Source of the DNA: Corbicula japonica
Taxonomy: Eukaryota > Mollusca > Bivalvia > Venerida > Cyrenidae
Assembly (NCBI GenBank): GCA_038501625.1
Contig: JAZAYU010000003.1
Span: forward strand, 1,925,001-1,989,000
Reading direction: 5' to 3'
Length of the DNA stretch: 64,000 nucleotides
Positions 39,305-63,964 of the stretch are shown here, in pieces. Positions within the stretch are counted from its first letter, which is position 1, and each line of letters opens with the position of its first letter. The position numbers and the translations under genes are program-made. The notes below the pieces were generated by a model. That model was not told the DNA's origin and ran no database searches. It worked only from the letters and a program-made list of their open reading frames with translations.

Positions 39305-39620
39305 GAAATACCGAAAACTATTTCAAATTATAAATGGTTTTATTATTCTGATGGATCAACTCCGTGGGTTTAGTTATGATTTCATTCTTTTCAATTATAT
39401 CACTATCACGTTCTTTCACATTCTTTACTTGTTCGGGACTGTGTAGAGAGATCAAACTGATAAATTTCACTTTCTCGATAAAGTAAATTACACGTCCGTA
39501 AATGCTATTTAAATTCAGTGACATTTAGGTAACATAAATTATTTGATTATCGTTTCATCTTTTCTTCTTCTTCAGAAAACGTGTTATTCACTTAATCTTA
39601 AAACTATTAGAGATTTTAAA

Positions 39621-39646
39621 TTTATTGTCATTTGACATAATTTATT
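39621..39646 (-). terminator. poly(A) signals of the RNF213-like gene
   Basis: TTTATT at 39621-39626 and at 39641-39646 reads as two AATAAA hexamers on the minus strand, about 185-210 bases after the stop codon of the RNF213-like gene. Confidence 0.6.
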
Positions 39647-39829
39647 TTTTATCTATTCTGTATCTCTTAATCTCTTTTTTTTTGCATTCACTGCCAGCTA
39701 ATTAAAAGTTGCTGCGAATTTCACAGTTTACAAAGCATAAGTACCTATTGCTTCCAGAATTGCTATGCGCTTGATTTAAATTTTAGATGTAAATTTAAAG
39801 TATCAGAAATGACATGTTCTGTAGCAGTC

Positions 39830-42800
39830 TTACTTGTTGTTTGCAGTATCTGTATAGTCCTCGTCATCCGGATTCTGTCTCACTGCAACAACCAGCAGTA
39901 TAAACTCGTGCAACACTTCAACTAACTGAGTTAGTTTATCAATTGACAATTTTCTCAAAGCGTATTCCTTGAGTTCTGCATACAGCTCTGGTGGTAATTC
40001 ATCATGCATCTCCGCTGAAACACTCTCAAATGTCGACTGGAAAAGTTATAAAATTAAATGCAACAAACAAATTAACCCTATTCTAATACCATTTGTATGT
40101 ATTTCAAATAATTAAGATCGTATGTTGAGCATTGTATAGATGCATAGATGTGTTTAAGACATTCCTTTGTCTCCATTTAGATACGATGTGGTAGTATAAA
40201 AATTAGTTACTAGTTAAAAATGCTCTGAAATTAAATTCAGATTTACAGTTCAACACGGATATATCAGAAGACGTTTAAATAAATTATCGTAAGAAAATGT
40301 TTATTTTTCATCATCGGCGTACATGAATAATGAGTTTACTTGAATGTGTTTTTGTAAAACCTACTTCAGTATGCTGTCGAGTTTCTGTCATCTTCTTAGA
40401 TTTTTGTAGAGATAACAATAACCACAGTGACTGCGCATGTCGGAACTCACATGCCTGTTGCGCCTGAAATGAAACATAAAACAACATTTATATAACTTTA
40501 CATCAGTAAATGTTGAAGTATACCAAACATTCCTTAGTTTTTATTTAAATTTAAGTTTTAATTTTACTTCCCATCGATTTACAGAAAAAAATATCAAGGC
40601 TAATATTTTGCGAATTTATTATATATCGCAAATTTAAAGTTATCACAACACTTTTCTTACTTTCTGACTGTGCAGTGAAGAATCCATTTGAAGAGTTTCT
40701 AGCATGAACTCGTGTAGTCGTCTGTCTGGTGGACCGCCTGTTGATTTCAGGAAGCTGATGGTAATGTCCAGGTTGTCTAACGACTGACACAGGTCTGGCA
40801 AGGATCTAAACTCGCCGCTAATCTGCGTCTTAACCACAGTGCTGAGTGGCTCCTGTGATGATATTTGAATTTAGAATAATTACCATCTTAGTGCTGTTTT
40901 AGACAAACCACACTAATTCCAATCCATGGTACATCTAGTAACTAACAACAATTTACACATGCACAAAAAGTAAGTTTGGACACATTGCAAATGTTTAGAA
41001 CAACAAATATGTTTAATTACCGTATAATTATTTTTAAGAGAAGTGCAAATTACTTGTACCAAAGTCAACTGTAAACGAAGACGTATAAAATTATTGATTA
41101 ATACAATCGGCATTTTACAAACCTGCGTAATTTTATCTGCAAGTTTCCTGAAGACTTCTGCATTTGTGAACTCTGTTCTGTATATCATCAGATCAATCTA
41201 AAACAAACATGGACATAGATTCAGATTAAAGCAAACTTGTGGATGAACTCAATAAAATACGATATACTCGAAACTAAATGAAAGAACCAAGCAATCTGTT
41301 ATTTTGCAAGAAAATCACTTTAGTCTTTTTTTAAACAGTTTCATAGTCAACAAGAAAATGTGTTCGTAAAACACATATGCCCCCGGTAGCGAAGTTTGTA
41401 ACGATACAAATTTTAAATGATAGCACAGTGTTACAACTGCAACTAAAATCACAAGTTAGTTCTAAATAATGAAAATAACCGTCTGGTGCCAGAACCTGTA
41501 CATGAAAAGAATTTATCATAACAAGAGCCAGTCGGAAACGACTGCACACTCGACTATTCGAAGTCAGACATATTTAAGCACATTTAAAACTGGGCTTCAT
41601 TTAAACTGGGGAGTGATTCAGGAGTTTATGACACCCAACACACACACATGAACAAAAGTTTCTTAATCCAAGTTAGGAAATCAATAAATTACAGTTACTT
41701 TATTATTGTAGTTTTTTTTAGAGGGTTTACACAACCCAGTCCATACACCCCTGATCCCACACCCATCAACCCACTATCCCTGCCCACCTATAGTGATGTG
41801 GTGGGGTGTGGTGTAGTATAGTAAGGTATGGTATGCTGGTTGCTGTTGTTGGTGGTGTGGGTGTTGTTGCTGTTGTTGGTATTGTTGTTGGTGTTGGTGT
41901 TGTTGGTGGTGTTGGTGTTGTTGTTGGTGTAGTTGTCAGTGTTGTTGTTGGTGTTGTCAGTTGTTGGTGTTGTTGATGCTATTGTTGTTGGTGTTGTTGA
42001 TGCTATTGTTGTTGGTGGTAGTGTTGTTGTTGGTGGTGTTGTTGACGGTGTTGTTGGTGGTGTTGTTGACGGAGTTGTTGGTGGTGTTGTTGACGGTGTT
42101 GTTGATGGTGTTGTTGACGGTATTATTGTTGGTGTTGTGGTGGTGGTGTGGTGTGAGATGGGGTGGTGTGGTGGGGGTGGTGGGGGGTGGTGGTGGTGGT
42201 GTGGTGGTGGTGGGGGTGGTGGTGTGGTGTGGTGTGGTGTGATGTGGTGTGGTGTGGTGTGGTGTGGTGTGGTGTGGTATAGTATAGTATAGTATAGTAT
42301 AGTATAGTATAGTAGTATAGTATAGTATAGTATAGTATAGTATAGTATAGTATAGTATAGTATAGTATAGTATAGTATAGTATAGTATAGTATAGTATAG
42401 TATAGTATAGTATAGTATAGTAACCACTCAACACTTTCACCAAAGTATGTTAAGTACATCTGTTTTAAACCTTTTCTATAGCATTACCTTAGAAAAACAC
42501 TAACACTGAAACTTAAACCATAATTTCTAAGTCTTAATTCTAATTTCTAAGCGAAAAAGGGCAAAAATCAAATAAAACAAGTTAACCATTTATATCCAAG
42601 TATAAAATGGGGAGATAATCCCAGAAAAAAGGTAGCCAGACTTACGTAACTTGTAAGGGTCATCATCTGTGCACTGTTAAGTATGTGTGTAAACTTTAAT
42701 GCCAGATCTCTTTGTGGATATTGCGAAATATCCAACATGCCGAAATAAGTTAACCATTTTCTAAGTACAAAAAGGGGAGACAACACCAGAAATAAGGTAC

Positions 42801-45800
42801 CCAGAGTTATGTAACTTGTCAGTGTCATGACCTGTGAACTGTTAAGTAAGTGTGTAAACTTTCATGCCAATGCTCATTGTAGAAATTGAGAAATATCGAA
42901 CTTGCCGAAAAATGTTAACCATTTATCTCTAAGTACAAATTGGGGAGAAAACCCCGAATTAAGATAGCCAGAGTTATGTAACTTGTTAAGAGTCATACCC
43001 TGTGCACTGTATATTAAGTTTGTAAACTTTCATGCTAATGATCTTTGTAGAAATGGAAAAATATCCAACTTGCCGAAACAGGTTAACCATTTTTCTAAGT
43101 ACAAAAAGGGGAGATAACACCAGAAATAAGGTACCCAGAGTTATGTAACTTGTCAGGGTCATGACCTGTGAACTGTTAAGTAAGTGTGTAAACTTTCATG
43201 CCAATGCTCTTTGTAGAAATTGAGAAATATCCAACTTCCCGAAAAATGTTAACCGGAAGGACGGACGTACGGACGGACGGACGGACAGACGGACAGACGG
43301 TTCAATCACTAGATGCCGGGGGCATAAAAAGGGTCATTTTCCAGGTTAAATGGAATCGCTGAATGGAATTGCATGTAACTTAAGATCCAAATATTCCACT
43401 TGTTGGTCTTTATTCAAGATTTGTTGCAAAATGGAAATCATTGAATTCATTGAATTGACAACAGTACAATTGACAATTTTACACATTTATTACAAGTTAC
43501 CAAAACACTTCTGATTTAATATGTCTGAAACCGATCATTGTATAACTATGCTCTCTTCTCTTTATACTTTATGGCTGTGTGGGGTGATTGTGTTTACTGG
43601 ATGTGGCCATTCTTCCTGATATGCATCTAGGGTTTAACCGAACATTATATAATTTTTCTTTCCTCAAGAATCTTCTTTTGTGGTAATTATTAATTCTTTT
43701 TCAATAAACTTGTTTGAAAACCTTTTATATCATTTGCAAAGCATTTTCGTCAAAGCATATAGATGTTAATTAAACAATTATTTTTCTTTTTTTCTCTATC
43801 AAGTACTAAACAAATGGAACCAGTAAAAACTAAAGTTACCTGTAAAAATCGTCCTACATCAATCCTAGATTTAGAAAACAGAAATCTGTCCATCAGTTGT
43901 CTTTCCAAACCACCAAAGTCGTACTCTATCTTAGTTCCTTTGCTCATCTCAAAGGAATATTGGCAGTTTGCTAGAATGAGTGGAAGTATGTCTCGTTGTG
44001 GGTCGTAACTTATGAGATGAGCCGATGTCACTTCCTTTGGCTGAACTGTTGAAATACTCGAAGATTTTCTAGAATTTGAAAGTGTTTCATTCAAGTGACA
44101 ATTAACTGAATGCAGATGTAAAAAGTCAGCTTTTATATAATTTTTATAGGTCACAAAATGCAGAAAAATATGCAACCTGGTAAATATATTTACGCGTCTC
44201 ATATGAACCAGTCAGTCAATAAAACATCATAATATAGAAATATATCAGAATTAAGTGTACTCGTTTTCATCTGGGCGAAACAAAAATTATTAATTACTAA
44301 AACTGTATAAAGTTTTCTTTACAAAAGAACAACGCACATTTCATGACAACACCAGTATATAATTAATATCGTATAAATAAATAAAACAAAAATAAAAATA
44401 TCTCCTACTCATTTTGGCTGTGTTAAGGTGCTGCTTTTTGGTATGGCAATGAATGTTTTTCAATCTACAAAACGGCGTTTGAAATGAGTAATGTTTGTAA
44501 CTAAAGTGCCAAAAAGAGTTTTGTGAGCCCAGAATTTTTTATGCTTCTACAACTATGGTGAAGGAAGAATATTATGATAATAATATTAAATAGATGGAGA
44601 ACTCTTAAATTAACCGAACACATCACTGAGAAAACAAGAACCTAAACAAAATAATTAATTTATGAAATGTTGTCACCCGCTCACCCACTGACACACCCGA
44701 ATCTGATAATCACGGTTTCCAAAGATAAACTTGTTACAAAAAATTTGATATTTAACCAGCAGAACAAGTCAGTTTTACAAATATATTAACCTTTGGGATT
44801 CTTTTAAATACTTGTCCAAGAAGTCATTTTGTTTTCTGAACAGGAAGTCTAACAGAGCAAATGAGCACAAGCCAGCTTCTTTCATGGTTGGCAGTAACAT
44901 GGCAACTGGAGTTTTATCAGTGATCTTCCGAGTGCAGAACTCCTTGGCAACCGTTGTTCCTCCTATCTCTGTCGGACATACTGCAAAGGTAACAAGATTA
45001 CCTTATACATATCATGCTTTAACATCACATCAACAACCCTCTTTTGTTCTCCCACAAACACAGAATAAAAGAATTATATTTTGACATGTAATGTCAAATG
45101 TCCAAGAAATCTAAATCAAATTATATGTGCATTGTCTAAAAAAATTGATTTTCTAATGACTTGTGCAGCCCCTTTTCGAAATCCAATCACTCATCACGCA
45201 AGTGAAGGTTTGAAGCTGTAACAAAAGACATATGATGATGACTTGTGAAAAAGAAAGTTGAGTATACATATAAAAAAATTAAGTTATACTGATAAACACA
45301 TAACAATGAGTGATGAGAATACTTAAAATATTTGTAACATTTTTGATAACTTTGCAGCTAGTATTGTAGTTGCAATAAAATCAGTGTCCGATACATGGGG
45401 AAAACGCAATAACCAGAACACTCAGTCTCCACACACACTTAATAGAGGTGAGAAGGAATAATCATAAGGTTATTAAGTTCAAAAACAAGAGGTCATAAGT
45501 AAGGATGCATATTACGAAACAATTACTACATTGGAAATGATCAGTGACAAAACATTTATGCCACTGGAAATTTATTGTAGGCTCCCAAAATAATCTACCT
45601 CATACTTAGGCCATTCTTAATAAAAACTTTGGTACATGTACTGTCATATTCTTCAAATTAGAATGTTATATGTTTCATACTTACAGTACAAATCAAGAGA
45701 CCGTCTGACAAGTTCCCAAGCCTCTGCAAAGTCATGTATTAACTGATCTGTTTCTTCACCAGCAATTTCGTCTGTAACATTAGAAAACAAAATGAATATG

Positions 45801-48800
45801 AATTGAATGAGCCCCTCGTTTTTAATGCAACAACCTTCAATTATAACATCCATGACAGAAATTTAATATATCTTCTTTCTTAAAAGAGTTAAAATCTTTA
45901 AAAGTATAAACTATGAAAAAAAAACAACAACAACCTTTTCGTAGTTGCGCTACTGTAATCTGTGAAGCTTCGGCTTTATCCAGTTTTCTCTGATACCTTT
46001 GGAACAGTGCACGATGCAGTCTCAGAATACTTGGAATGTAACGCATAGCTCGCAAATTGTGTTCCTGTAATTTAGGTAAATTATATTCCCACAAAACACA
46101 TCACTGCAATTTCTTGAAAATGATTTGCATTCATTATTCGCAGCACATAAACAATTTAATGTACTCTTTTATTAGAAACATGACTTTGAAACATCATAAA
46201 TTAGTTTCTTGAAAAAAAGAGATAGTCAAAAAGTAGCACAAATAAGAACATAATGTCATCTTAATTATGTGCCATATTCTCAAAATATTATCGATAAGTA
46301 AAATTATGGTTCTCTTATTCTATTAAATAAAATTTACTCTCATTGATTTACCAGTATCTTGATACTGTTTCTGTTCTTAAACTTAATTTAAAGATTTTTT
46401 CTTAGCTTATATAATTTCATTGAAGAAAAATACACTTAATACCTCTTGAAGGAAAAGTTGCAAAACTTTATGCTGGTTATGCCGAATTTGAGCTTGCACT
46501 TCCTGTCGTAGATGTTGAAGGGAAATAGGTGTACGATATCTCCATACACGCGGAATCTGCTCGATCTTGGCCGCATTTTCTGACTCTGTGTTTGTGTCCG
46601 TCTCATACAATAAACATAAAAGTGGATCGGCACCTGCAATAAATAAAGAGAAGTCTTTAAGCCAAAAACTTGTAATGCTATTTCTCCTTAAAATACATGT
46701 GATTAATATGGCATGTGAACTGGTTAATATTTTTTTAAATATAGATTCTACATGTGATACTTCGATGACCATGTTCAGAAAAGCAGCTGGTCTCAATGCG
46801 GTCACCTTGTACACATATTGCAAAAAATGCCATTTGCTACATGTATATTGTAATATTGTTAAATGTATTCAATACAAAACAAACATAAAGAATTGAAATA
46901 ATATAATATAGTCATGAACATATGTTATTATTAAATTCTAGTTATTTAATAAATTTTTAATAACAATACATACCTAGCCTTTGATCCTTTGCTAGATTTT
47001 GATTGTGCGCCTTTAAAACACCGTTAAGATCCTAAAACAGATAAAGCATAAACAGTTGTAGAAAAAGCTAATATAGGAAATTTGGAATCGTGGAATGAGT
47101 TTAGAATGAAGAATATGTCCAAATCTTGAAAATCAGTTAGTTCACGTTTCAAGATTAAAAGAACCCTACCTCACCCCTATTTCTACTAATAAAAAGCTAA
47201 GCTACTGCCAAACATGATTCCTGCCCTTTCTGTAAAATGGACTAAGCCATAAGTGATTAACTTCAGAAACATCTACACCTGATTTGAAATATGTGTTTTA
47301 AGTTTTAACTCAATCTTGAAAACTGTAAAAGTAGTTTATGCTACAAACTGTTTGCAACGGAGCGCCAGATCGCCCAAGTGGATGATGACTTCTAAAACAA
47401 TCCATTCAAACTTGTTTATGGAGGTATGAAAAAACATTTAAACCAAGAAAACAAATGTAATACCTGGAAAAGTGGTTGTAAGAATTTCGTGGAGAAAGTG
47501 ATCTCCCATTCCCTCCTTCCAGGTTTAGTACTCCACTGACTTATATCCGCTCTTAACTGCTCTCCTAAAATCAGATAAACATTGTTATTGCCAATGTTAA
47601 AAGAAGATCTATACAATACAACACAGTAAAAACACCTGTTACGTTTCGCCAAAGGCACTACGCTGCAATCACGGCATATGCAACGCTTTTCACCGGCATA
47701 ACCGTTGTCAATGTAAGAGGTTGTGTGGGATCAGATAAGAAAATCGCAGTTTTTCGCTAGATCTCTAAATCACACTTGAACAAATAGGCCTATATGGCTG
47801 TTGAGTCATGAGACTACGATTCTAGTCTTCTCTGTGTCCACAATATAGAACTTTGCTCAATCATTCGCGAACACGGATCTGTCTGAGCTGCAAATCTTGT
47901 AAATTCTGAGCCAAAAACTCTTGCGATTTTCTTACCTTACCTCACAAAACCACCTACACTGACACCGGTTTTGCCGGTTAAAAGCATTGCATATCACGTG
48001 ATCGCGGCGTAGTGCTGTTCGCGAAGCGTACCAGGTTAGCCAGGGTGACAAAAGAGCTGTCTCTGAAAACACACAATCTCATATGCCGCAGAAATGTAGC
48101 TTTAAAATCAAAATGGTATTGATACGCAATTGAATGTGCCAATGAAAAGAGATGAACCTTAACACTTATAATATGGAAGATGATAAGGATCTGTAGATAA
48201 TCCCTCAAGTAATATAAAATTAAAGTAAAATTTTATTACCACTTTTAATGAAAATTCTAAATTAAAAGAAAAAATATCTTGCAAAAATGATTTTTAGAGT
48301 TATAAACCTTACCACATATGTCGTGGATGAAGATAAGAAATAATGTGTGAGTAGATGATAAGAAATATATAGTCAATGTTTGAAGTAAATCACATAAGAA
48401 ATAGCAAATATAAGACCATCGAAGACAGGTGATGCTCCCCGAAAAGGTACTTTGTCACAAAAACGGTTAGTTGCATTAAGGTGAATTTTGAAAAAATGGT
48501 TAACTGCCATAATCAAGCCTGCGTATGACACGTCGTCTCATAATGGCGATCATTTCTGTAAAATAATTTAAAATTTCAACATCAAATAACAAAGTTATGG
48601 GCCAGAATTTGCTACCTTGATCTTCAAGGTAGCGATCAAAATTTGTGCGAGACATGTCGTCACATTACGGTGATCATTTCTGTGAAATAATTTTAAATCC
48701 GACTAAAAATAACACGATTTTGCTACAAGGTCACGCTGTGACCTCGACCTTTCAGGTAACTACCCAAATGTTGCGCGTTACTTGTCGTCTCAATATGGTG

Positions 48801-51800
48801 ATCATTTCCGTGAAGTTATTTTAAAATTCAACTTCAAATAAAGTTTTGGGCCGGAAAACGATGATGCAACAAGGTCATGCTGTGTCCTTGACCTTCAAGG
48901 TAGCCACCAAAATGTTGCCCGCGACATGTCGCTCCGTGTGGTGATCATTTCTGTGAAATTATTTGAAAATCTGGCTTTAAATAAAAAAAAGATATGGGCT
49001 GGAAACGAATTAGGGACGTATTTTCATTCATATAATTCACTACTTTAATACCCAAAACCCATTGACAAGTTCTTTTAGTACTGATATTTTCTTAAAGATA
49101 AAAAAAAGATATTTTAAGATGAGCCATTCGTTTACCCTCGTTGTGATTCCTAAATATATTGTCCACCACTGTGTGCATAAGGAGCATGACATCGTCCACA
49201 CTGACACCCAGAGATATATGCATGTCATCTAGGTCCCGCAGTATGTGATCCCACACATAATCCTCCACCTCTGCATCCGTGATGTTCGGCTTTATTAAAT
49301 TCTGTATACCCTTTAAAATGCAAACAAATTCTGGTGAAGAAACAGCAATTAAATGCGGTCTCCCTTCACAAAGAAAACCATTTTTTCTTTCAATTAGTCA
49401 ACTGTTATTTGGTTCACAAATGGCAAAAGAATGAACCAAGTTGTGTTTCAGAAACATAAATGACAATGGCATTTAAAATTTGGAAGCCGATTTTAACATA
49501 TTTATTTAAATGAAGCTATTGATTAATTAGCTCCCGTAATGTAAGATTTTTATGACAAAATAGTATAAATAATAAAGGTATCTTATACTTTGTCGTAATA
49601 TGCACAAGTAGAATGAATAAATAAACTTGTAAGATGAATTTGGTTGCATAAAAAGAACAAAAATAATCTTGTCTATATTCTTTTACATACAAAATTTGTT
49701 TGTCAATTCGATATTAAATATGGAAAAATGGATTCCCTTCAAACATTTCACATTCTTCACAGAAGGCATTAATTCATCTCTAAATAACTGAACTACTGGT
49801 TCATATTTGAGATTATTGGCAACAGACATTCCTCTGTGGTCACAACTGACTGTTTTAAAGCCGACTTTATTTTCAATATTCAGTAGACGAATGACTGCTT
49901 TCAATGTAGACTAATTGCTGCTTCAAGGTGGGACAAAATATAAAAACTAGTCATTTTCATTCTGTTTAAAAGAATGACAGAAATTTCCTTTTATCATATA
50001 TTATTACATCGCCAAGGTATTTAAATAAACGTATTTCCATTACTAGCAACTTATATCGGAGCATTGTAACATATCAAATTATAAAACAAGAAAAGCAACC
50101 CTAATGCAGGCTTAAAACCCATTTTGTAAACAAGTTATACCAGATGATTAGTTCCCGCTCCAATGTACATCGACATATGTAAAATCATTCTAACTGCTGA
50201 GCAATACGCTGGTGTAAGTTGGCGCTCAGGCTGTGAACCACGACCTCTTGCTTGAGCACGACCAAGGATATGTCCGGTTAGAGTTGTGTCCGCCCTAACA
50301 ATTAAACACAGCAGAAAAATATGATTATCATAAAAAATAGGAAACTACCATTTTTTCAAAGACAATATGTTAGCTTTAATTTAATTGTTTTGTTTTAGTC
50401 ATAACTGTGAACTACACTAATATAAATCATTTTTAATTTGATATATAAATTTAAAGACGATGGAACAGCTATAAATAATCTTTCAATAAAACATCATAAA
50501 AGGCGGTTTTTAAAACAACATGGCTACACACAGCAGTCTTTTAACAACTAAACTAGATGGGTGTTCAGTTGAACACTTGTGTTGCCCTCTGGTGCTGTCG
50601 GAATAAAAATGCAAGTACAAAAAGGGGAATTACTCCAACAAATGTGACCTTGACCTTAAGAATATAATATCGTCATGAGCGTAATGTCAAAGGGAATATA
50701 ATTTGAAAGTTTGATGAAGAAATATTAATAAATGGCAAAGTTATAGCCAATGTTAAGTTTTCATATAAAGGGGAATAACTCCATCAAGTGTGACCTTGAC
50801 GTAAAGAATGTGGTATTATCAGGAGCGTGTTGTTATAAGAAATATAATTTGAAAGTTTGATGAAGAAACATTAAGAAATGGCAAAGTTATAGCCAATGTT
50901 AAGTTTTCGTAAAACGGGAAATAACTCAATAAAATGTGACCTTGACCTAAAGAATGTGGTATCATCACGAGCATGTTGTCATAAGGAATATAATTTGAAA
51001 GTTTCATGAAGAAATATTAAGAATTGGCAAAGTTATTGCCGACGTTAAGTTTTTGTGTCTAAATATATTAGTACAAAAAGGGGCATAACTCCATCAAATG
51101 TGACCTTGACCTTGAGAATTTGGTAGCATCTCGAGCGTGTTGTCATAAGCAATATAATTTGAAAGTTTGATGAAGAAATATTAAGAATTGGCAAAGTTAT
51201 TGCCAACGTTAAGTTTTCGTGTCTAAATATAAGTACAAAAAGGGGCATAAGTCCATCAAATGTGACCTTGACCTTGAGAACTTGGTGTCATCTCGAGCGT
51301 GTTGTCATAAGCAATATAATTGGAAAGTTTGATGAAGAAATATTAAGAAATGGCAAAGTTATAGCCAACGTAAAGTTTTCGTGCAAGGGCGGACCGACGG
51401 ACTGACGGACAAAGCGGTCCCTATGTATCGCCATTTCTTCGAAAGGGCGACACAAAAATCAACATCCTGGGACACCTAAACTCCTTTTGGGTTTATTACT
51501 TATGAGTTTTTTGTTTGAAATTGATCAAATTCATATCTTCATGCTTTCGTTTACTTTCTGCAGTTATGCTGCGTTTTTCTATTCCTGATAAGCCAATTTT
51601 ACAGTTGTTTTTTATCGATTTATACTTGAAGCTTATGTGATACAAAGAGCTAGTAAAACTGCTTATGATTTCAATAATTTCTGAATGTTTTATTTTTTGG
51701 CTTAAATCCATCCTCATCATACAACAATTGTCAAACGGATACATTGTCAGAATAAGTAATAGAAGTACAAAAAGGCGTAACTGAGTCAGATGCGAGTTTA

Positions 51801-54800
51801 ATATAAAGAATTTGGCGTTATCACAACCCAGTTGTTAAAAGAAATATTATTTTAAAGTTATAGCCAGTATAAAGTTTTCAAGATAAAATTAAGGTACAAA
51901 AGGCAGAACTGTATAAAATGTGATCTTGACCTAAAGACTTTAGCATGATTAAGACCATGTAATAAGCAATATATTTTTCAAGTTTAACAAGAAATATTAC
52001 GAAATTGCAAGATTTAAGCCCACGCTAGGGTTTCGGGACAAAATGACAAATAAAATACACTAGATGGGTGTTCAGTTGAACACTTGTGTCGCCCTCTGGT
52101 GCTGTCGGAATAAAAATGCAAGTACAAAAAGGGGTATAACTCCATCAAGTGTGACCTTGACCTAAAGAATGTGGTATTATCAGGAGCGTGTTGTGAAAAG
52201 GAATATAATTTGAAAGTTTGATGAAGAAATATTAAGAAATGGCAAAGTTAAAGCCAATGTTAAGTTTTCGTAAAAAGGGAAATAACTTATTCAAATGTGA
52301 CCTTGACCTAAAGAATGTGGTATCACAAGAGCGTGTTGTCATAAGGAATATAATTTGAAAGTGTCATGAAGAAATATCAAGAAATGGCAAAGTAATAGCC
52401 AATGTTAAGTTTTCGTAAAAAGGGAAATAACTCCATCAAATGTGACCTTGACCTAAAGAATGTGGTATCATCACGAGCGTGTTGTCATAAGGAATATAAT
52501 TTAAAAGTTTCATGAAGAAATATTAAGAAATGGCAAAGTTATTGCCAATGTTAAGTTTTCGTGTCTAAATATAAGTACAAAAGGGTCATAACTCCATCAA
52601 ATGTGTTCTTGACCTTGAGAATGTGGTATCATCACGAGCATGTTGTCATAAGGAATATAATTTGAAAGTTTCATAAAGAAATATTAAGAAATGGCAAAGT
52701 TATTACCAACGTTAAGTTTTCGTGTCTAAATATAAGTACAAAAAGGGGCATAACTCCATCAGATGTGACCTTGACGTTGAGAATTTGGTATCATCTCGAG
52801 CATGTTGTCATAGGCAATATAATTTGAAAGTTTGATGAAGAAATATTAAGAAATGGCAAAGTTATAGCCAACGTTAAGTTTTCATGACGGACGGACGGAC
52901 GGACGGACAAAGCGGTCCCTATGTATCGCCATTTCTTCGAAAGGGCGACACAAAAAGGGGTATTACTCCTTTAAACGTGACACTGACTGACTTAGCGTTT
53001 ATGGCATTATTTCGACCCTTTTAAAGTAAGCAAAATGATGTAAAAAATTGATGAAGAGATATTAAGAAATGGCAAAATTATATCTTTCATCAATTTTTTT
53101 GTGACGGGCCGATGGACAAAGCGATCCTTATGTATCGCCTTTTCTTCAACACAAAAAGCAAAATAACAAAGAGTTAAAGAACAAAACAACAAAGAGTTAA
53201 AGAACAAAACAAGAACAAAGTGAACAAGAGATGTTTTTAAAACATGTATCTCCCCAAAGGCCAAAATGATCATCCAAATCATTGTATAGTTATATGGCGA
53301 GACAAGATTTTTGTATTTAAGGTCACTTGACCTTTGACATTATGACATAAGATTCATTTTCTTGTAATGACAAACATCATAATTGAATTAGAGGATCGAA
53401 GGCTAATTGTTGTTATGTAGTTAATATTTTCACTTCAACTTCATCCTCTACAATGAAGTCTTATTCATCTAACGAATCATAAGTTTTGATGGTAAACAAT
53501 GTGACCTATTATTTAAAAGGCGTAGCTACAGTAGAGCCGTTCACAATTTATTGGACGTTGCACAATGTTTTGACGTGTGACATAGCCTTGCACGCACGTT
53601 TCGCCACGAAATGCTGCGAAAAAGCGTGCCGTCATTCACTTTGTTGTCAACGTAGCTGTTCTAACAGCCATTCCAAAAAGCCGTAATTTTACGAATTCTT
53701 CTAGTTATTTCTGTATAAATGAGATTGTTAATGAGTGTTAATATAAGTATTGAATCAATATTTGATGGTTTCCTTCGGGCTTCACACACTTTAAACAACC
53801 CAACTGTTTTACATACCCAAATGGAAACCATCAACTATCGATTCAATCCTTTATTGGTTAGCGAACTATTTTGTTTGATATGGCGATAATAGGGGTCATA
53901 TGCAGGCCATTAACAACCCCCTTACCAAATTTGAGGACCACAGGTAAAAAGCATTTTCTAGTTATTGATTGGACAAAGCGCTTACGGACGGACTGACCGA
54001 CCTACATGATGAAAACAATATACCCGTGCTTCTTCAAAGGGGCGAAGGCCATGCATAACTTCGTTTACACAGATGACAACAGCAGAAACAAAAGCACAGC
54101 AGGAAAAAATATTGAACAAAATTATCAATGACAATTTACTTTGAAAAGTAAATATTAGATATTTACAGAACTGTCACACATGACATAACATACTTTAGCC
54201 ACATCCTTTTATATTCTAAATAGTTCAAGTTTTCAATATTAATTTATAAAACAAACACACATTAAAGAAGTTTAAATTGAAATGCAATTCCTAGCACATC
54301 TAGTAAGGTTTTGTTACAAACCAACTATTTGATTCCTTCAAAGTGATCACCTCCGTGAGATATGCACAGTTTCTATCTTTTGGTCAAATTTTTAAAGGCA
54401 GTTCCATAGTCGTTTCTGGGTATGCCCTTAAGACACTGGAAGATGGCTTGTGTTTTGCATTTTCGTCCAGTGAGGTACTTTTCAAGCCTCGGTAACAGGA
54501 AGTAATCTCAGGGGACAAGGTCTGGGGAATACGGTGGATGTGGAAGCTTTACAACCTGTTTCTTTCCTTAAAAATCGCATACAACTGCCGCTTTGTGGCT
54601 AAACTCGTTGTCATGCAGCAACCTGACCCCCGACAAACCTGTCGCTGGCCTGGTCTATTGAAATATTTCAACTTATCTAGAACAGCCCTTCTGTACAGCT
54701 TGCTTTTTACCGATTCGCCTTTCGGACCAGCAATTTGTATCTTGCCCTTGATTTGTGAAGAAAACTGCATACTTAACATCAAGCCCTGATTTGTGAAGAA

Positions 54801-57800
54801 AACTGCATACATAACCTTTCTGATGCTCACTGTGCGTTTGGCTATACATGGCCTTTTCACGTGTTTTGTAATCCATAGTTTGTTTTCATGTTTTCGTTTG
54901 GGCTCATAGAAATGCACCCATATCTCATCGCCTGTGACGATATTGACAAAGTTGCCATTTTTACGCGGAGGCGCTTCTGCTCGTCCTTGAGGAAATATCC
55001 AATTATCTTATTCATTTAAGGTGCTTCTGGGGAAGCCTTCTTTTCGGGCTTTTCCCCAACAGTGAATTTTGCATCTGTCAATACAATTTCTTTGACTTTT
55101 TCTACCATTTTGGGACAAGCTGCTGTCTTTCTGCAATGGCTTCATAGTGCATCTTGCAAGGACGTTATTCCACTTGCAAATTTCTTGCACCACCTAGTAA
55201 CCGATGCATAGGATAGATCACCAGGTTCATAATTGAGCATATTTTATTAAATATCTCTTTTTGACCATGAAAACAGCGGTTTTTAATGTAGGCCCGCATT
55301 TAGGCAGCGAATGCATATTTTTACCAACCATTTTATCATTAGTATGTAGATAGGACGGATTTCTCAAAACTGGTATCAACCAAGAGATAATTGATGCCCT
55401 AGGCGATCCAAGTAGGTTTTTTGTGAAAAGCGTGCGTAGTTACATAATATAACCAGAGTTGCATTTCAATTTGAACATCCCTGTGTATTAAGCATTTACT
55501 TCCAAATTTTACGTCGCTTCGTTAAAACTGATCAATAACATGTTAATCCTGCAAACTAAATATTAAGCAATATCTGGTCGAACGAATGACCTTCCCAGCA
55601 AAAATAGCTCAAAGTTCAAATTTTCTTGTTTCATTTATCTGACCTAAAAAATTCTTGTATACATGTATCTGTATTTGAAATTATATCACTGAAATTTGAA
55701 AAAATACACTCAAATTTAACTTTTTTTTTTCAAAATTGCCTTCTATTTAACAACTTGAATTATAAAATTTTCATGAAACATGTATTATTTTCAATCATTT
55801 TTCACTAAAATATAAAAACATGTTAACTGTAATTTGTTTGTGTTAGTATGTGCAGGAACACGTATAAAAATTATATTTAAGATTACATGAAACTAACCCG
55901 GTATCTTGTCTATTGGTAGGGAGAAGCTGATGAGCCTGCCCACCGATATCCGCACCGCACTTACATTTGGCTACAACATATGGCCTACCACACTGGATAA
56001 AGATACACAGAATGAACCAATGTTCATAATGCTGTTACATTATCGTCATAGAATCGTATGCAGCTTTAACTGCATCAGCTAATTTTGAAAAAGCCCTTTG
56101 TTGCGTAAAGAAAAAAATTGTCACAGCAGCCAAACAATAAAAATTGTTTCTTGAAGAAGAAACAGGAAATAAAACTGATCAAGCATACGATTCTATACCG
56201 AAAACAAACACAGAACAAAGCAAGAAAACGCATAAACTTCATTCTTCTTCCTACATTCTTAAAAATACAAGATTTTCAAAATATTGTTGTGCAGACTTCC
56301 CGAAAATTAAAAAAAAATAGAGTCAGACATTTGGTCAGATAAGATGTGAAAATCTGTCTGACCGAAACTAATTATGTCGGTTCAAAATATGTTAAAAAGG
56401 TATAAGCAAGTATTTAGAGTTCAAAATTTTGTCTGATATTCGGTCCGGTTACATAAGAAATCACGCCAGAACGGCCCAAAGTTTACCAGATAGGTCCTTC
56501 AGTCTAGCAACTTTCAGAATGTATGTTTGTGCATTATAAACAGTTTTCCTAAACATTGTAGAAGAAGTATGAAGTTTAGACATCTAAATAACACAGAATT
56601 GTTTCATGCATAAGTAACTGACCCTGCATCCTGAATATTTCCTGGGCGGAGTTTGTACCCCTCTCCCCCTATGACAGCCCCACACTTGCAGTGGCCTACA
56701 GTTGCTGGTCGACCACACTAAGAATACAACGCAATCAATATGTCAATGTGCTTCTTTCAGTAAGTATTGCGACATTCTGATAAATAAGTATTTGCATGAA
56801 GATTTGTTTTTGCTACATTCACATTTTATTTGGCAATTTATTATCATAATGAGGATATTGATACCCAACAGCTTCTGATCTACACATAATCATTACTAGA
56901 ATTCAAGAAACACATATAAAGCCAAATTAACTTATCAGATTTTATCAAAACAGAAACAAACAAGAACTGTCACTGTAGCAACCAAAACAGACTTTACATA
57001 AATTTACTATAAAATGTGTTCATAGGACACGGATGCCCCCTCTATGCATCGTTTTCAGATACTAAAGTGCAATGATGGGAATAATAGCATTTCAAAGACA
57101 GTTATGTTCGAGTAATTATAAGAATATGCATAAACTTGATGATCAAGTAAATTATTTGTATTTGTGGCACTGTTGTCTTCTCATTACGGAAATGTCTGTG
57201 AAGAAGTTGGTGGTAATGCAATGCAATGTCATAGTGAACATTTGTACCAAGTTATTTTGAAATCCCTTCATTCATAAAGAAGTTATAGCCGGAACAAGTA
57301 AATTCAAGTTTTAGTAACTGTGACCTTGACCTTAGACTTACAGGCATGGGTAATGTATGCAACACACCGCCTTATCATGGTGAACATTTGTGCCAAGTTA
57401 TTTTGAAAACCCTCCATTCAAAACAAAGTTATAGCACAGACAAGAAAATTCTATTTTTAGTAACAGTGACCTTGACCTTGGACCTACAGGCATGGACATG
57501 ATACACGACTCACCACCTTGTCATGGGGAACATTTCTGCCAAGTTATTTTGAAATTACTCTATTCCTAACGTAGTTACAACCCTGACAAGAAAATTCTAT
57601 TTTAGTAACAGTGACCTTGACCTTGGACCTACAGGCATGGGCATGGTACGGGACACACCATCTTGTCATGATGAACATTTGTGTCAAGTTATCTTGAAAT
57701 CAATCTATTCAAAAACAAAGTTACAGCCCGGACAAAAGAATTCTATTTTGAGTAACAGTGACCTTGACCTACAGGCATGGGCATGATAGGCGATACACCG

Positions 57801-60800
57801 CCCTGTCATGGTGAACATTTGTGTCAAGTTATTATGAAATCCCTCAATTTATAATTAAGTTACAGCCCGGACAAGAAAATTCTATTTTAGTAACAGTGAC
57901 CTTGACCTTGGACCTACAGGCATGGGCATGGTACGGGACACACCATCTTGTCATGATGAACGTTTGTGACAAGTTATTTTGAAATCAATCTATTCAAAAA
58001 CAAAGTTACAGCCCGGACAAGAGAATTCTATTTTTAGTAACTGTGACCTTGACCTTCAGGCATGGGCATGGTACGTGATACACCGCCCTGTCATGGTGAA
58101 CATTTGTGTCAAGTTATTATGAAATCCCTCAATTCATAACAAAGTAACAGCCCAGACAAGAAAATTCTATTTTTAGTAACAGTGACCTTGACCTTCAACC
58201 TAAAGGCTTGGGCATGTACGTGACATACCGTCTTGATATGGTGAAGAATTATTAAAAATCCTTTAAGAAATAACAAAGTTACTGAGTGGACAAGATTTTG
58301 CAAGAAAATTCTATTTTTAGTAACAGTGACCTTGACCTTGGACCTACAGGCACTGGTATTGTCAAGACACACCGCCTTGTTATGGTGAACATTTGTGCCA
58401 AGTTATTTTGAAATCCCTCCATTCCAAACGAAGTTAAGGGCAAAGTGTATATTTTTCTTAACACAAAATGTAAGTGAAACAGGGGCATAATTTGAAAAAT
58501 ATTGGAAGCAGGGTTATGGGTCTTGTTGGTTATGATGTAGATTTTGATGGTGAAAATATATTTCAACTTCCAAGGCAGTATCTAAGTAGTTTTAAAGTTA
58601 TGGGCAAAATGCATATTCTGCTTAACACAAAATATAAGAAACAAGATATATTCCTTATTAAAACTAATGTAACTGGAATTATCAAAGGGCCATAACTTCT
58701 GAACAGAACATGTAAGAGCAAAACCCCACCTTTATGCACAACAACATATCAGGCCAAGCATTGTGGTAAAGTTTCATTAAATTCCCACCAGTAGTGTAGG
58801 AGGAGATGCGTTCACGAGATATTCTCCTATTAAAACTAATGTAAATGGAAGTATCAAAGGGCCATAACTTCTGAACAGAACATGTAAGAGCGAAACCCCA
58901 CCTTTATGCACAACAACATATCAGGCCAAGCATTTTGGTCATGTTTCATTAAATTACCACCAGTAGTGCAGGAGGAGTTGCGTTCGCGAGATATACTCCT
59001 ATTATAACTAATGAAAATGGGGGTATCAAAGGGCCATAACTTCTGAACGAAACATGTAAGAGCAAAACCCCACCTTTATGCACAACAACATATCAGGCCA
59101 AGCATTGTGGTCAAGTTTCATTGAATTCCTACCAGTAGTGTAGGAAGAGTTGCGTTCATGAGAATATCGGACGGACAGGAGCAACTCTTAATGCCCGTCG
59201 CCATTTCATGGCGAGGGCATAAAAAGCCTTAAAGTTCGTATGTGACAAACTTTAAGGTATTGCGTCTTTCACCATTTCTTTGCCATAGACAATAAAGAAA
59301 AATATAAAAAAATATCTCAAAGGGCACAATGAACTTCCATCAAACTTTCACAAATAAATGCTAGAGGTATTTATCGTCGTCAGTAACTCATAATTCATCA
59401 AGACATTTAAATTGATGTTTAGTGTTGCTTGTTTTTTTTGTGTTTTAGAGATTTTTATTTATTTCTTTTTTGTCTATGGGAAAGCAATAGCGAAATGTGC
59501 AATACCTTAATTCTGCATAATCAAGACCTCTACCTTTGACCCCAAAACAACAGGGTTGATTTTCAACAAGTAACCACTTGAGAATGTAATTATTCTATTA
59601 TTGCTCCTTTTCCTCGAAGGAAACGTGTGTTCTTCTGATTGCAAATACACTGCTATAGTTTATGATTATTTGGCACAAATATACCACTCAAAATTTGATA
59701 AGGGACACTTTAAAGTTAACTTGACAATGTATTGTTTATTTGAACAAACCCGGATGAACTAGTCATCCGAGTTGAATTATTCAACTGAAACACGATTAAA
59801 ATAAATAGATAAATTATCTAAGCAGGAAAACATACAAACTACAAAAATGGCCCTTATTAAATTTTGAGTAGTATTATTGTTCATTAAAGAAAATTGCACC
59901 ATACTTTGATTTATACATGTATAATTTGTACAAAGGTCAAGAGTCTCTGAATTATCACAGCAAGTGTAAGAGGAGAATCACTCGCACTTAAAACAGAAGG
60001 AGGGGTCTTTGGATGGGCTTAAACTTTACAGAATTTAATAAAGGCCATTACCTCAAACTCGAGGGCGATTTACCCTTCGATGTTTAAATATAGTATAAAG
60101 ACAATGTAAGATATTGTAAAGTTAACATGCATCTAGTGTGACATTTCAAATACAAAGACAGATGCTGAAAACATTTCAGTTACAGCCGTCCCCTTTGTCC
60201 TGAATGGAAACAAACACATGATTCTTTAAGTACTTACATCTCCAATAACATATGGGTGGCCATTAGGGCATCCTGAAATAAAAAGAAAAATGTTACATAT
60301 GGATATCCTTAAAGTTGTTTGTGCTGTCACGCATCGAGTTTCTACTCATCTGTTGTTATCCTTTCCTTATCTTACCAATGATATTAAAATAAATTATCCC
60401 ATCTGCGAAAGTATGGTCTTCATAACGAAATTCTAACTTTATTATTGACAACTGTTGTATATTATTGGAAACCCCAAAAAGATGCTGTTTTTTTTCGTCT
60501 ATTTGGATGTTAAACATAAAACATTATTTAAAAAAAAGTAAAAGAAAAGTTCCCACATACTGTAGAAGACTGGATTGTTGTCCGCCCCTCTGACTTGGTT
60601 GCGTGCAGCTAGTAGAGCTTCCTTCACATCTTCAAGGTCATCCTGCGGCATTGTTGGCAAAAATGCATTCTGAAAATTATTGCAAAAAAAAACTCTTAAC
60701 GAACATATAAAAAACATTAACAGAATAGTAATATACAGTAAAACTTCGAAAACTCGAATACTCACGGGGATTTTGAAAATGTTCGAGTTTTCCATGGCGC

Positions 60801-63762
60801 TCGAGTTTTTGAAGCTTCACTTTATGAGGTCCAATTTTTAAGTCAAGTCGTATAAACACATGTATGTTACCTTGTTGTTGAGTACGTTATCTGAATATCA
60901 GCTAAATTATTAAAAGATTCATTTCAAATTGTATTTTCTTTAAACCTTTATATCTGTTTGAAAACATTTTTTTAGGTTTTTTTTTTTCAAGAAAACTGCT
61001 TTTTAAACCTTTTGTGTTGACATTGTCCGAGAACTAGTATACTTTACAACGGTGCGTCGTTTTTTATAAGCGTATATAATTTACTAGGTCCCGTCAACAT
61101 AAAAAAAAAACAACAAACAACCTCGTCTCAATGAAGCCGCCTAACGAGTGATCATAAAATCATTTTCTTTCATCATAACCTGCTTTAATCAGATCAATTA
61201 AAACACAATAGACGCTGGAGCTTGACAATAAACTGCCAATTATAACCCGTCACAACGTGTGAAAACCACGCGTCGCCATTTACCAAATACTCCCGTGAGG
61301 TGCGAAAATGTTATCAGTCGTTTATAACTCGAGTTTTCCAATACAAACAAAGAAGAAATATGCTTCAGGGGACTGACACCTGTGTTCGAGAATTTGAGTT
61401 TTTGAAGTTCGAGTTTTCCATGGTATTTTTACATAGAATATATAAGAAAATTGCCAGGACCAGCAAAACTACTTTGAGTTTTGCCGAGTGCTCGAGTTTT
61501 CGATGTTCGAGTTTTCGAAGTTTTACTGTAATAGACTCATCACTAGGTTTCTAAACATATCAATTTTTAAAAAACATTTTTTTTTGGAATTCAATACAAA
61601 AATAATGTATCTTACCTGCATTGACTGTGGCATCTTCATCAGTGAAATAAGAGGTTGTAGTAAAGTTCCGTCTCCTTTCAAATGTGCCATAACAGTCAAG
61701 AAATGCACAATGAGACACTGCATCCCTTGATGACGAAGGTCTTCTCCTTCATGAATTACCAGATGTCTAGGAACCAGCTGATTATGAACCAATGCCTTCA
61801 GTAATGGCTGAAAGACCAAAGTCTCATTTAAACTTTATGCTCTTAATTTCCTTTGTGCTTAAACAGAGCTATTCTTCCCAGCAAATTTCAGACTACTTAA
61901 ATTAACATTGCCAACCTTTTTTTCATGAAACTGGTAACTTCAATATCGTAAAAATTTCCGACCAAAAAAAGTTTATTTTAAAAAGTTTTTTATAAGAGAA
62001 ATCTTGTTTATTTAATACCAATAATTACAAATAATATAAAAACGGTTTTGCTAGGGCTTTTTTTCAGTCAATTTTATAGATGATATTCAGTTATGTTCAG
62101 GCAAAACACATACGTTTTTCCCAAGGGAGAAGAAAAATTCCCAATTGAATCAATAAAAAAATTTCTGACAAAAACCCTGTCATTTCATTCATAAAATATT
62201 ACTGCCTCTTAGTTAATCTGGCATCATATGTTTCTTTATTAAAAACACAATACTGAAAATATTAAATACATGTTTTTGTAAATTTTTTATTCCCCAAGTA
62301 TAAAAACAAATCCTAATTTCTGGCAAAATGTTGCCAAATTTTCCAATTGCAGGGATATGGGTCATATTCCCAAAATGGTGAAAAAAATCCCTGTTACTAA
62401 AGGTACACACCTTATTTCTGGTTAATTGGCAATTATCAATAAACTCATCAAGCACTTGTACAACCCTAGCTGTGTTCTTCCTCTGCTGCTGAGGATAAAG
62501 GTTGGAAGCTGTAACCTCCCTATGTAATGCCAGTTGTAACAATGGCTCAACTCTGACACCTGCAGTCTGTAGTTCCTGTAAGTAGAGCAATTAATGTCAC
62601 AAAACAGTAATTGCAAAAAGACACCACAATGTGAAAAACCTAGGTTTTTCCTCAAACGTTAACCCGACTTACCTTAAGATAGTCAGATGATTAAATATTT
62701 AGAAATGACAAAGTACTTGCCAATGCAAGGTATTCATAACAAAACTCACCTGCATTTTTAAGCAAAAGGTAATCTAAATAAGCTAATAGACCTTGTAATG
62801 GAGTCTAAACATCTAGTCTTAGTTCAACACTCCATGCGTTGTTTTAGTGAAATCCAGAAATAAATAAGAAAAACAATTCAAATGATCACTTAAGTTTATT
62901 ATAAAATAAATTGTATTTTAAAAACTTTAATCCCCAACATACAAATATTACCCACCAAGAAGCAGAAAATAAAGTAAAACATCACTTAGAATATGTTTGG
63001 TGCTTAAAATTCTACATACCTGAAGATTTTGCTCTAGTTGTGTTGTATCCTCTCCCAGTAAAACCTTTGTCACAGATTCTCTGAGCAATGTATAACTCTC
63101 ACCACAAACAATATATCTATCAGATACTTCAACAACCTTTTGAGAGAAAACAATAAACACAATTTATTTTCAAACTTTTTACATGTGAACAAATAACCAA
63201 TAATTTTATATCAAAAGAGAATGCCTGCTCCAACAATCCACTCCATAGTTAAATACCTTTATCATGTGGGCAAACAGTGTAGATCCTGATCAGATTGAAC
63301 GGTTTGCTTTTAGAATCATTAGATTATTTCTGACAATGATGCAACCATTGTTGATCCAGATCAGACATCACATATGTGCTGTTTGATCTCGATCTACACT
63401 GGTCCCACATGTGATAAAACTCTAATATTATGATGTTAATTGTTAAATACATGAACAAGGAAGTTCTTAACATTATGAATCAATGCTTTGTTATGATCCA
63501 TTAACAGTTTGATCTTTTTTACTTGTATTCATAAATTATTTAATGTGCAGTAGATCATTGACTAGACCAGGTGAATAACTCACAAGCATTCATGTTGAGG
63601 TTTGCACAATATTGGGTTTAACTCATTAACAGTAAATATCTTACTTGTTCTCGCTGAATGTCCTTGACACAGACCCATCTTAAAAATGGCTCAGGTTTAC
63701 GACAGATTGCCTGGTAAACATCTATACCATAAAAGCGACACATGAATTTAACAAGGTAGACC
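39830..63762 (-). CDS. RNF213: RNF213-like (mysterin) E3 ubiquitin ligase, C-terminal 905 aa, 5' part outside window
   Basis: Exons in transcript order: 63645-63762, 63020-63136, 62411-62575, 61616-61807, 60561-60669, 60238-60272, then either 56623-56717 or 55898-55992, 50141-50294, 49136-49310, 47464-47564, 46974-47031, 46443-46633, 45935-46064, 45685-45771, 44791-44980, 43840-44068, 41123-41197, 40661-40852, 40365-40463, 39830-40036. All are GT-AG and phases match throughout (2,718 nt, stop TAA). RNF213 is a giant cytosolic AAA ATPase and E3 ligase active against lipid droplets, viruses and bacterial LPS. Diagnostic signs: NAFLPTMPQDDL then YRCPNGHPYVIGD-CGRP, the RZ finger (in-window residues 235-263); TLTGHILGRAQ; VWRYRTPISLQHL; LISYDPQRDILPLILANCQY; LERQLMDRFLFSK. 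ATPase and RING parts lie upstream, outside the window. Two codons differ from vertebrate spacing in the finger (C-x-C instead of C-x2-C). Introns carry many mobile elements. Confidence 0.93.
41350..43330. repeat. bivalve element with CCCCCGG ends, holding a large low-complexity block
   Basis: The left end has 'acacatatgcccccggtagc' (41371-41390) and the right end has 'gatgccgggggcataaaaa' (43312-43330), opposed termini. The right half is a tandem array, 42567-43250, with a unit of about 170 bases in four copies ('aagttaaccatttt', 'ggggagataa', 'gttatgtaacttgtcagggtc', 'tgtgtaaactttcatgcc'), then a GGACGGAC run. The left half is the microsatellite block described separately. It lies in the intron between the RNF213-like exons 43840-44068 and 41123-41197. 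Confidence 0.8.
41805..42421. repeat. long low-complexity tract: GTTGTTG..., GGTGTG..., (TATAG)n
   Basis: Three adjoining arrays: 'gttgttggtgttgttgac'-type 18-bp repeats (41840-42130), a G-rich GGTGGTGGGGG stretch (42140-42270) and about 29 TATAG pentamers (42275-42421). The strand is strikingly skewed (G/T on +, A/C on -). Frames of 93-223 codons here are artefacts of the repeat. Confidence 0.97.
43540..43640. repeat. part copy of the GCATATCAG dispersed family
   Basis: 'atggctgtgtggggtgattg', 'ttcctgatatgcat' match 7255-7345 and, inverted, 4690-4760. Confidence 0.6.
48450..48995 (+). repeat. tandem array, about 125-bp unit, 4 copies, in RNF213-like intron
   Basis: Units share 'acatgtcgtc', 'tggtgatcatttctgtgaa', 'ttattttaaaattcaac' and 'tgaccttcaaggtagc'. 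It lies in the intron between exons 49136-49310 and 47464-47564. Confidence 0.85.
50555..51455 (+). repeat. tandem-array element, about 160-bp unit, 5 copies
   Basis: It opens with a hairpin 'gtgttcagttgaacac' and 'gccctctggtgctgtcgg'. It repeats units with 'aaaaaggggcataactccat', 'tgtgaccttgacct', 'gagcgtgttgtcataag' and 'gatgaagaaatattaagaa', and closes with GACGGAC and 'tcgccatttcttcgaaaggg'. CGCCCT near the start and AGGGCG at the end are opposed. It is intronic to the RNF213-like gene. Confidence 0.9.
52060..52955 (+). repeat. second copy of the 50555-51455 element
   Basis: It has the same ends, the same order and almost the same unit sequence as the element 1.5 kb upstream, with five units and a GGACGGAC tail. 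A third, shorter partial tail runs on at 52956-53140. Confidence 0.9.
53220..54055 (+). repeat. worn bivalve element, GACGGACTGACCGACC tail
   Basis: It begins 'aacaagagatgtttttaaaa' and ends 'cttcttcaaaggggcgaagg'. A single unit with a short GAC-rich tail. The 66-codon frame at 53486-53686 lies inside it and looks non-coding. Confidence 0.5.
54264..55490 (-). mobile_element. mariner-like element, inactivated
   Basis: About 1.2 kb, the normal mariner size. Inner end words 'tttaaattgaaatgcaattc' (54271-54290) and, inverted, 'gttgcatttcaatttgaaca' (55459-55478) are its terminal repeats, diverged at the tips. The minus strand encodes a mariner transposase in broken frames: TGDEIWVHFYEPKRKHENKL near 54930-54880 (first catalytic Asp) and VRLLHDNEFSHKAAVV near 54640-54590 (second). 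A 31-base internal duplication at 54757-54806 ('gatttgtgaagaaaactgca' twice) and further frameshifts kill it. It lies in the long intron after the second RZ exon. Confidence 0.87.
55898..55992 (-). CDS. RNF213: RNF213-like RZ-finger exon, version B (alternative)
   Basis: 95 nt, acceptor ATCCAG, donor GTTAGT, phase 0 to 2. It encodes CGRPYVVAKCKCGADIGG, then QAHQLLPTNRQDT. It follows version A by 630 bases and has the same length, phases and 18 of 31 residues. It keeps the Cys that begins the exon, the CKC pair and a His two residues after IGG, which is the usual RZ-family form. Only one version can be spliced in without shifting the frame. Confidence 0.85.
56623..56717 (-). CDS. RNF213: RNF213-like RZ-finger exon, version A (alternative)
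   Basis: 95 nt, acceptor TCTTAG, donor GTCAGT, phase 0 to 2. It encodes CGRPATVGHCKCGAVIGG, then EGYKLRPGNIQDA. The IGG.AH histidine of version B is replaced by Tyr here, and the stretch before CKC carries a His instead (GHCKC). Both splice sites look intact and there is no stop, so it is not an obvious dead exon. Confidence 0.85.
57005..58440 (+). repeat. bivalve tandem-array element, about 155-bp unit, about 8 copies
   Basis: It starts 'aaaatgtgttcataggacac' and GATGCCCCCTC. Units carry 'aacatttgtgccaagttatt', 'aaatccctccattc', 'agtgaccttgaccttggacc' and 'tacaggcatgggcatg'. It is intronic to the RNF213-like gene, between the microexon and RZ exon A. Confidence 0.92.
58441..59225 (+). repeat. 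second tandem array, about 175-bp unit, 3 copies
   Basis: Units share 'gggccataacttctgaacag', 'aaaccccacctttatgcaca', 'acatatcaggccaagcattg' and 'accagtagtgtaggagga'. It closes with GGACGGAC and 'tggcgagggcataaaaag'. It abuts the previous array, and the GATGCCCCC start and GGGCATA end suggest one element with two kinds of internal unit. Confidence 0.88.
60238..60272 (-). CDS. RNF213: RNF213-like RZ-finger microexon (35 nt)
   Basis: It completes an Arg codon and encodes CPNGHPYVIGD, the first half of the RZ zinc finger with its C-x3-H zinc ligands (in-window residues 235 and 239). The acceptor is TTTCAG and the donor GTAAGT. It ends in phase 0, so either RZ exon A or B can follow. Confidence 0.88.
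60736..61528. mobile_element. pogo/Tigger-type MITE, 793 bp
   Basis: Perfect 23-bp terminal inverted repeats (CAGTAAAACTTCGAAAACTC and on), flanked by TA duplications at 60734-60735 and 61529-61530. Subterminal CTCGAGTTTTCGA-type words recur inside both ends. No transposase is present. It lies in the 0.95 kb intron between exons 61616-61807 and 60561-60669, so it makes up most of that intron. Confidence 0.9.
63258..63418. repeat. MITE with ATGTGGG...AGTGTAGATC termini
   Basis: 'atcatgtgggcaaacagtgt' with 'agatcctgatcag' at the left is the imperfect inverse of 'gatctacactggtcccacat' at the right. It shares AACAGTGTAGATC ends with the shorter copy at 28891-28952. It lies in the intron between the first two in-window RNF213-like exons. 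Confidence 0.75.
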
Positions 63763-63964
63763 CTGAAAAAAAAGTGTGTAGATGTTTTTCACTTTATTTC
63801 AGCAATAGCATTGATAGAAACCATATTTAATAGCTTTTGTGTGTCCTTCATATTTTGCAGTTTGACCCAAATGCTAATAGAAATCAATGCGTGTACATAT
63901 TAGGTTTGGAAACAATAATAAAACTATTGTATGTTATTAGAACATATTTTAACTTTAACCTGGT

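Follow-up and report, generated by a model that had tools for sequence, protein, structure and literature searches.

Candidate mutually exclusive exons for the catalytic half of the RZ finger in an RNF213-type gene of Corbicula japonica

Introduction

Two-exon mutually exclusive splicing is familiar from the pyruvate kinase gene PKM and from the JNK kinases, in which homologous adjoining exons of equal phase are used one at a time. Vertebrate RNF213 is an RZ-finger E3 of cell-autonomous immunity, represented here by solved chains such as 6tax, 7oim and 9g08. Bivalves filter bacteria, which some of them also harbour intracellularly.

The Cys/His dyad used by RNF213 for ubiquitin transfer was mapped only recently. 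In the mouse enzyme (PMC12075652), an E2~Ub activity probe labels the nucleophile Cys4462, zinc is held by Cys4451, His4455, Cys4471 and Cys4474, and His4483 has been proposed as the general base. Activity in vitro was abolished when Cys4462 was mutated, yet C4462S retained autoubiquitination; replacement of His4483 by Ala gave 'lower ( < 10x) autoubiquitination activity' (same source). The human equivalents (PMC11549300) are C4516 as nucleophile, C4505, H4509, C4525 and C4528 as zinc ligands, and H4537 as general base, the zinc-ligand and general-base roles being model-based predictions. RNF213 is reported to be expanded in symbiotic bivalves (PMC9993606), and different RNF213 genes of the Manila clam respond strongly, some rising and others falling, to LPS, peptidoglycan or poly(I:C) (PMC7430831).

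The gene described here lies in a window of 64,000 nucleotides of Corbicula japonica DNA. It shares with vertebrate RNF213 the E3 module, the C-terminal domain, the zinc ligands of the RZ finger and the nucleophilic Cys; one of its two exon versions, B, also has the general-base His. Compared with PKM and the JNK kinases, the swapped exon holds the nucleophile and the general-base position of an E3, and one version is without the His. The rnf213-alpha-like proteins of other bivalves (Mercenaria, Mactra, oysters, mussels and unionids) have an A-like or a B-like exon, with close pairs differing within the same borders; these predicted proteins show one version each, whereas the Corbicula gene has two as DNA. 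In the titles and abstract openings of the searched papers on RNF213, on bivalves or molluscs and on exon duplication, no alternative RZ exon was found. RNF213, the RZ dyad and mutually exclusive splicing are already known.

Results

An RNF213-type gene on the minus strand

The features of the gene are listed in Table 1. The joined peptides match the solved RNF213 chains with E-values of 3.7e-48 to 4.5e-47, and the E3 module and C-terminal domain are collinear with RNF213, both in these chains and in the Mercenaria protein P0011. The AAA+ core would fall upstream of the window. With the Pfam RZ model PF20173 (cut-off 27), the joined product scores 64.1 bits when it includes exon A and 69.9 bits when it includes exon B; these scores and the chain matches bear out the assignment to RNF213 and its RZ finger made in the earlier note. 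Among the P0011 tblastn blocks across the gene, which leave some short gaps, for example at the microexon, the RZ half-exon is the only segment matched twice.

Table 1. Features of the RNF213-type gene (positions within the window)
Feature	Position	Strand	Basis
C-terminal part of the RNF213-type gene	32226..63764	minus	tblastn blocks collinear with Mercenaria P0011 residues 2244-3204 (E 1e-3)
Exon e4 (NAFLPTMPQDD...NPVFY), 109 nt, ends in phase 1	60561..60669	minus	splice sites; collinear with Mercenaria P0011
Microexon e5, 35 nt, phase 1 to 0, C-P-N-G-H	60238..60272	minus	first two RZ zinc ligands, aligned to human C4505/H4509
Exon version A, 95 nt, phase 0 to 2	56623..56717	minus	splice sites, Pfam RZ, evolution as if constrained
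A-B intron, 630 nt, with a 14-nt exact inverted repeat	55993..56622	minus	sequence
Exon version B, 95 nt, phase 0 to 2	55898..55992	minus	splice sites, Pfam RZ, evolution as if constrained
Exon e7 (ADTTLTGHILGRAQ...), first base is the third base of the split phase-2 codon	50141..50294	minus	sequence, P0011 collinearity

Other parts of the window contain a transposase fragment (HTH_Tnp_Tc3_2, PF01498; 35180-35635, plus strand, E 3.7e-8), a weak reverse-transcriptase fragment below cut-off (PF00078; 13954-14169, minus strand, E 0.0038), and a low-complexity stretch at 41790-42483 with long repetitive open frames on both strands (YYTILYYTI..., TTPTTP...).

Two versions of one exon

When the sequence was re-read, A and B were indeed found to be 95-nt exons of phase 0 to 2, flanked by AG and GT and agreeing at 18 of 31 residues, as first described. 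Exon A is bordered by ttcttag/TGTGGT and GCAGG/gtcagt, exon B by tatccag/TGTGGT and ACCGG/gttagt. None of 200,000 shuffles of B reached 18 identities with A (maximum 13). Seven of the 31 codons are the same in A and B, 11 show only silent differences and the other 13 encode different residues. No third copy of the exon was found in the window by tblastn. Scored with a crude splice matrix, the two donors are alike, both in the top 2%. The acceptor of A is weak, as 18% of all AG on the minus strand score as well by the same matrix, against 4% for B.

The frame logic proposed earlier, in which either exon restores the frame and both shift it, was recovered by computing the joins: the frame is open with A alone or B alone, and an early stop follows with A then B, with B then A, and also with neither. 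The pair consists of adjoining homologous exons of equal phase with intact AG/GT splice sites. Frame logic and splice sites support the reading as mutually exclusive exons as far as DNA can show it.

The intron between A and B contains an inverted repeat, with arms within 56183-56204 and 56040-56061, whose exact 14-nt core exceeds that of all 100 dinucleotide shuffles of the intron. It could be a pairing element or the end of a mobile element. An RNA structure forcing exclusivity was considered and rejected, the fold of the whole intron being unremarkable (z -1.20, one of 20 shuffles as low).

Residues of the active site

The first residue of both A and B is a Cys that aligns with the nucleophile, which agrees with the earlier identification of this residue (mouse Cys4462, PMC12075652; human C4516, PMC11549300). 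Each version also carries the last two zinc-binding Cys and the general-base position, the first two ligands being contributed by microexon e5. At the general-base position, aligned to mouse His4483 and human H4537, B has His and A has Tyr, confirming the substitution noticed at the outset. The initial proposal was that the cell could switch the finger surface around the active site. Half of the finger is swapped, as proposed, but the proposal understated the exchange: with the His/Tyr substitution sitting at the published general base, the choice of exon replaces both members of the catalytic dyad and not only the surface around it.

The last two zinc ligands are spaced C-x-C, not C-x-x-C, in both versions of the window. 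This spacing is common to the B-like exons of Mercenaria, whereas the A-like exons of paralogues in the Corbicula genome have C-x-x-C. These paralogous exons have one codon more, so the shared length of 95 nt, though real, does not by itself point to duplication. On the simplest reading, the A exon of the window probably lost one codon independently and so matches the spacing of B by coincidence.

Paralogues in the Corbicula genome

A search of the genome with exon e7 gave at least seven RNF213-type genes, the window gene included. The six others (C222:292k, C222:94k, C222:458k, C640, C816 and C249) each show e4, e5, one RZ exon and e7 in the fetched stretch, and all six have His at the general-base position. 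Both exon versions were found in one of the at least seven genes, that of the window. Among the eight RZ exons found, the sole Tyr sits beside a His-bearing alternative. The single exons of C222:292k and C222:94k are A-like yet carry His, showing that the A type and Tyr are not strictly linked.

Between A and B the silent sites are saturated (pS 0.85), at a replacement divergence of 0.31. Saturation of silent sites with the protein kept indicates that the duplication is old and that both copies kept their protein. Exon A differs from that of C222:292k by 5 replacement changes over 68.8 sites and 11 silent changes over 24.2 sites (Fisher p 8e-5), and from that of C222:94k by 8.5 over 69.8 and 9.5 over 23.2 (p 0.002 or 0.012 by rounding). 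The same test of B against the C640 exon gave p 2e-4 or 6e-4 by rounding. In these pairwise tests, in which the constrained lineage of the two is not told apart, exon A evolves as if constrained.

Relics of a second exon were sought in four paralogue stretches (L008, L010, L012 and L013). None scored above shuffles in a nucleotide test, which would miss a copy as far removed as exons A and B are from each other (that pair itself scores 18); tblastn with both exons over the same stretches (E 0.01) returned a single RZ exon in each. For the C222:458k and C249 genes the search was by tblastn only (E 1), and it gave no second RZ exon. The idea that the pair arose when an A-type and a B-type gene fused is not supported, as the flanks of the window pair on both sides mostly resemble A-like paralogues; the exception is e4 (36 residues), which is closer to a B-like paralogue.

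Some paralogues have particularities of their own. In the C640 gene (L010/L011, G000:C640:121001-141000), the block e2-e5 apparently occurs twice upstream of the single RZ exon and e7, a partial internal duplication; the two matches to e4, at L010 9659-9552 and L011 7257-7150, have the same residues. Stretch L023 (G000:C222:457001-467000) holds a diverged RNF213 paralogue with the microexon CPNNHLYMIGN and an RZ exon starting CGNPNSVG, which was missed by the exon searches and found via e7.

His and Tyr in other bivalves

Three protein searches gave 9 matches among 139 candidates, 72 among 138, and 3 among 43; the third, through short database proteins, yielded no junction or transcript evidence. 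In the first two, 80 of 81 proteins were readable at the RZ exon (P0077 excluded). For other bivalves the comparison is of predicted proteins only, each showing one version, and the Corbicula window is the one place where DNA shows two versions within a single gene.

Tyr occupies the general-base position in 16 of 60 bivalve rows and in 0 of 20 other rows, the latter including one nemertean with Asn, the partial Mya row P0068, and three fungal ZNFX1-like rows for which the script picked a neighbouring residue and His is read by eye. The eight vertebrate rows all have His. Tyr goes with Ala at exon position 5: it occurs in 13 of 16 bivalve rows with this Ala and in 3 of 44 without it (P0006 being shifted in register by one residue in this count). 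The A form (RPATVG...GYxLRxGN or close) was found in Mactra, Mercenaria, Saccostrea, Ostrea, Potamilus, Mytilus and Dreissena, with near forms in scallops, so that A-like Tyr exons of predicted proteins span mussels, oysters, scallops, unionids and clams. A-like exons with His also occur in three database rows (P0025, P0026 and P0050). Three of the Tyr rows (P0029, P0037 and P0060) do not have an A-like exon and look independent in origin. Five bivalve groups are represented by more than one row, and in all five both His and Tyr occur. Between orders, exons are slightly more similar when both have Tyr (0.569) than when one has Tyr and the other His (0.524), a small difference reached by 4 of 2000 shuffles.

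One Sinanodonta protein of the RNF213 type, P0041 (2152 residues), has a precomputed Pfam list that includes PF00643 and several RING models; it is possibly a fusion.

Differences limited to the exon

A tree of the flanks was built from 67 rows with the RZ region removed, by a quick method that gave long-branch warnings. On this tree the His/Tyr state changes 13 times, 12 of these changes being forced by well supported branches. Shuffled labels needed 14.5-14.6 changes on average, and 83 and 85 of 500 shuffles were as low. With about as many changes as shuffled labels, exon type hardly follows gene lineage.

Identity before, within and after the exon was compared in 15 hand-picked pairs. The Mercenaria proteins P0013 (Tyr) and P0015 (His) share 97 of 100 residues before the exon, 16 of 31 within it and 98 of 100 after it, and their exon differences are confined to the borders seen in the window. 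In the same order (before, exon, after), the values are 88, 18/32 and 89 for Potamilus P0022 and Sinanodonta P0035; 80/98, 17/32 and 80 for Mizuhopecten P0047 and P0059; and 91, 17/32 and 81 for Saccostrea P0020 and Crassostrea P0032. The contrast is weaker in Mytilus trossulus (70, 17/32, 76) and Dreissena (67, 18/32, 72). Conversely, A-like exons resemble each other across groups more closely than the flanking residues do: for Mercenaria P0013 and Potamilus P0022, 26 of 33 exon residues agree, against 48% of the flanks. As the evidence from other species is at protein level only, gene conversion could also have operated there.

Some database proteins continue beyond the exon, and judging by their residues we read this as read-through at those borders, for example in Ruditapes P0082 after its A-like exon. 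The structure prediction of this A-type protein is poor (mean pLDDT 57); of its blocks within 141-180, which cover the RZ strands, three have pLDDT 83-86 and one 66.

Discussion

Judged from the genome sequence, A and B would be old mutually exclusive exons of one RNF213-type E3 gene, alternating a Cys/His and a Cys/Tyr active site, a reading to which we give a probability of roughly 0.7. The frame would enforce exclusivity, either exon keeping it and both or neither leading to a stop. Each exon encodes the catalytic half of the RZ finger, with the ubiquitin-accepting Cys, two of the four zinc ligands and the general-base position. By alignment to the published residues, B gives the normal Cys/His dyad and A a Cys/Tyr pair. 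It is presumed that both exons are used and that the cell selects one or the other. Through its Cys the A isoform should remain able to accept ubiquitin, and it may discharge it more slowly or onto other acceptors, in which case ubiquitin coating would be tuned or redirected through splicing. In bivalves the pair is likely to be old, and several gene copies may later have kept a single His-bearing exon. Single-exon genes with His, and a Tyr found only beside a His-bearing alternative, fit a normal form and a specialised form.

It is unlikely, on balance, that each bivalve gene has one exon type, that the types were moved around by gene conversion or exon shuffling, and that the window pair is a single accident. 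Such a history would agree with the one RZ exon shown by all six other RNF213 genes found in the genome and with the lack of a second-exon relic in the four paralogues tested. It is harder to reconcile with the P0013/P0015 difference, which coincides with exon borders inside flanks that are 97-98% identical, and with the five bivalve groups that hold both states, scattered over the flank tree. The window flanks also speak against it, being mostly of the A-like paralogue type, with e4 closer to the B-like one and no sign that an A gene had fused with a B gene.

That one exon, more likely A, is a dead relic no longer spliced in appears improbable. Exon A does have the weaker acceptor, one codon fewer than the paralogous exons and no catalytic His. 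Its changes, however, are mostly silent against C222:292k (p 8e-5) and less strongly so against C222:94k (p 0.002 or 0.012); the codon difference is in frame, and AG/GT are intact. The presence of Tyr in A-like exons of several bivalve groups argues against simple decay. A pair serving mainly as an off-switch, in which both-exon and neither-exon joins, with their early stops, would give unproductive mRNA and lower RNF213 output while the protein difference is minor, is very improbable, for it leaves unexplained both the Tyr/His difference at the catalytic dyad and the Tyr in A-like exons of several bivalve groups.

If A and B are mutually exclusive exons, a gene whose splicing can yield either Cys/His or Cys/Tyr offers a natural experiment on the role of the His, in a dyad so recently described (PMC12075652). 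The pair also asks whether a giant E3 can be tuned or redirected via exon choice. More tentatively, it may be an ancient bivalve splicing switch in which the Tyr form, retained since early bivalves, represents a genuine state of the enzyme that transfers ubiquitin more slowly or differently and could be used to set the strength with which bacteria, including symbionts, are coated; this wider proposal is possible rather than probable. Bivalves may in this manner switch the chemistry of an antibacterial enzyme by splicing.
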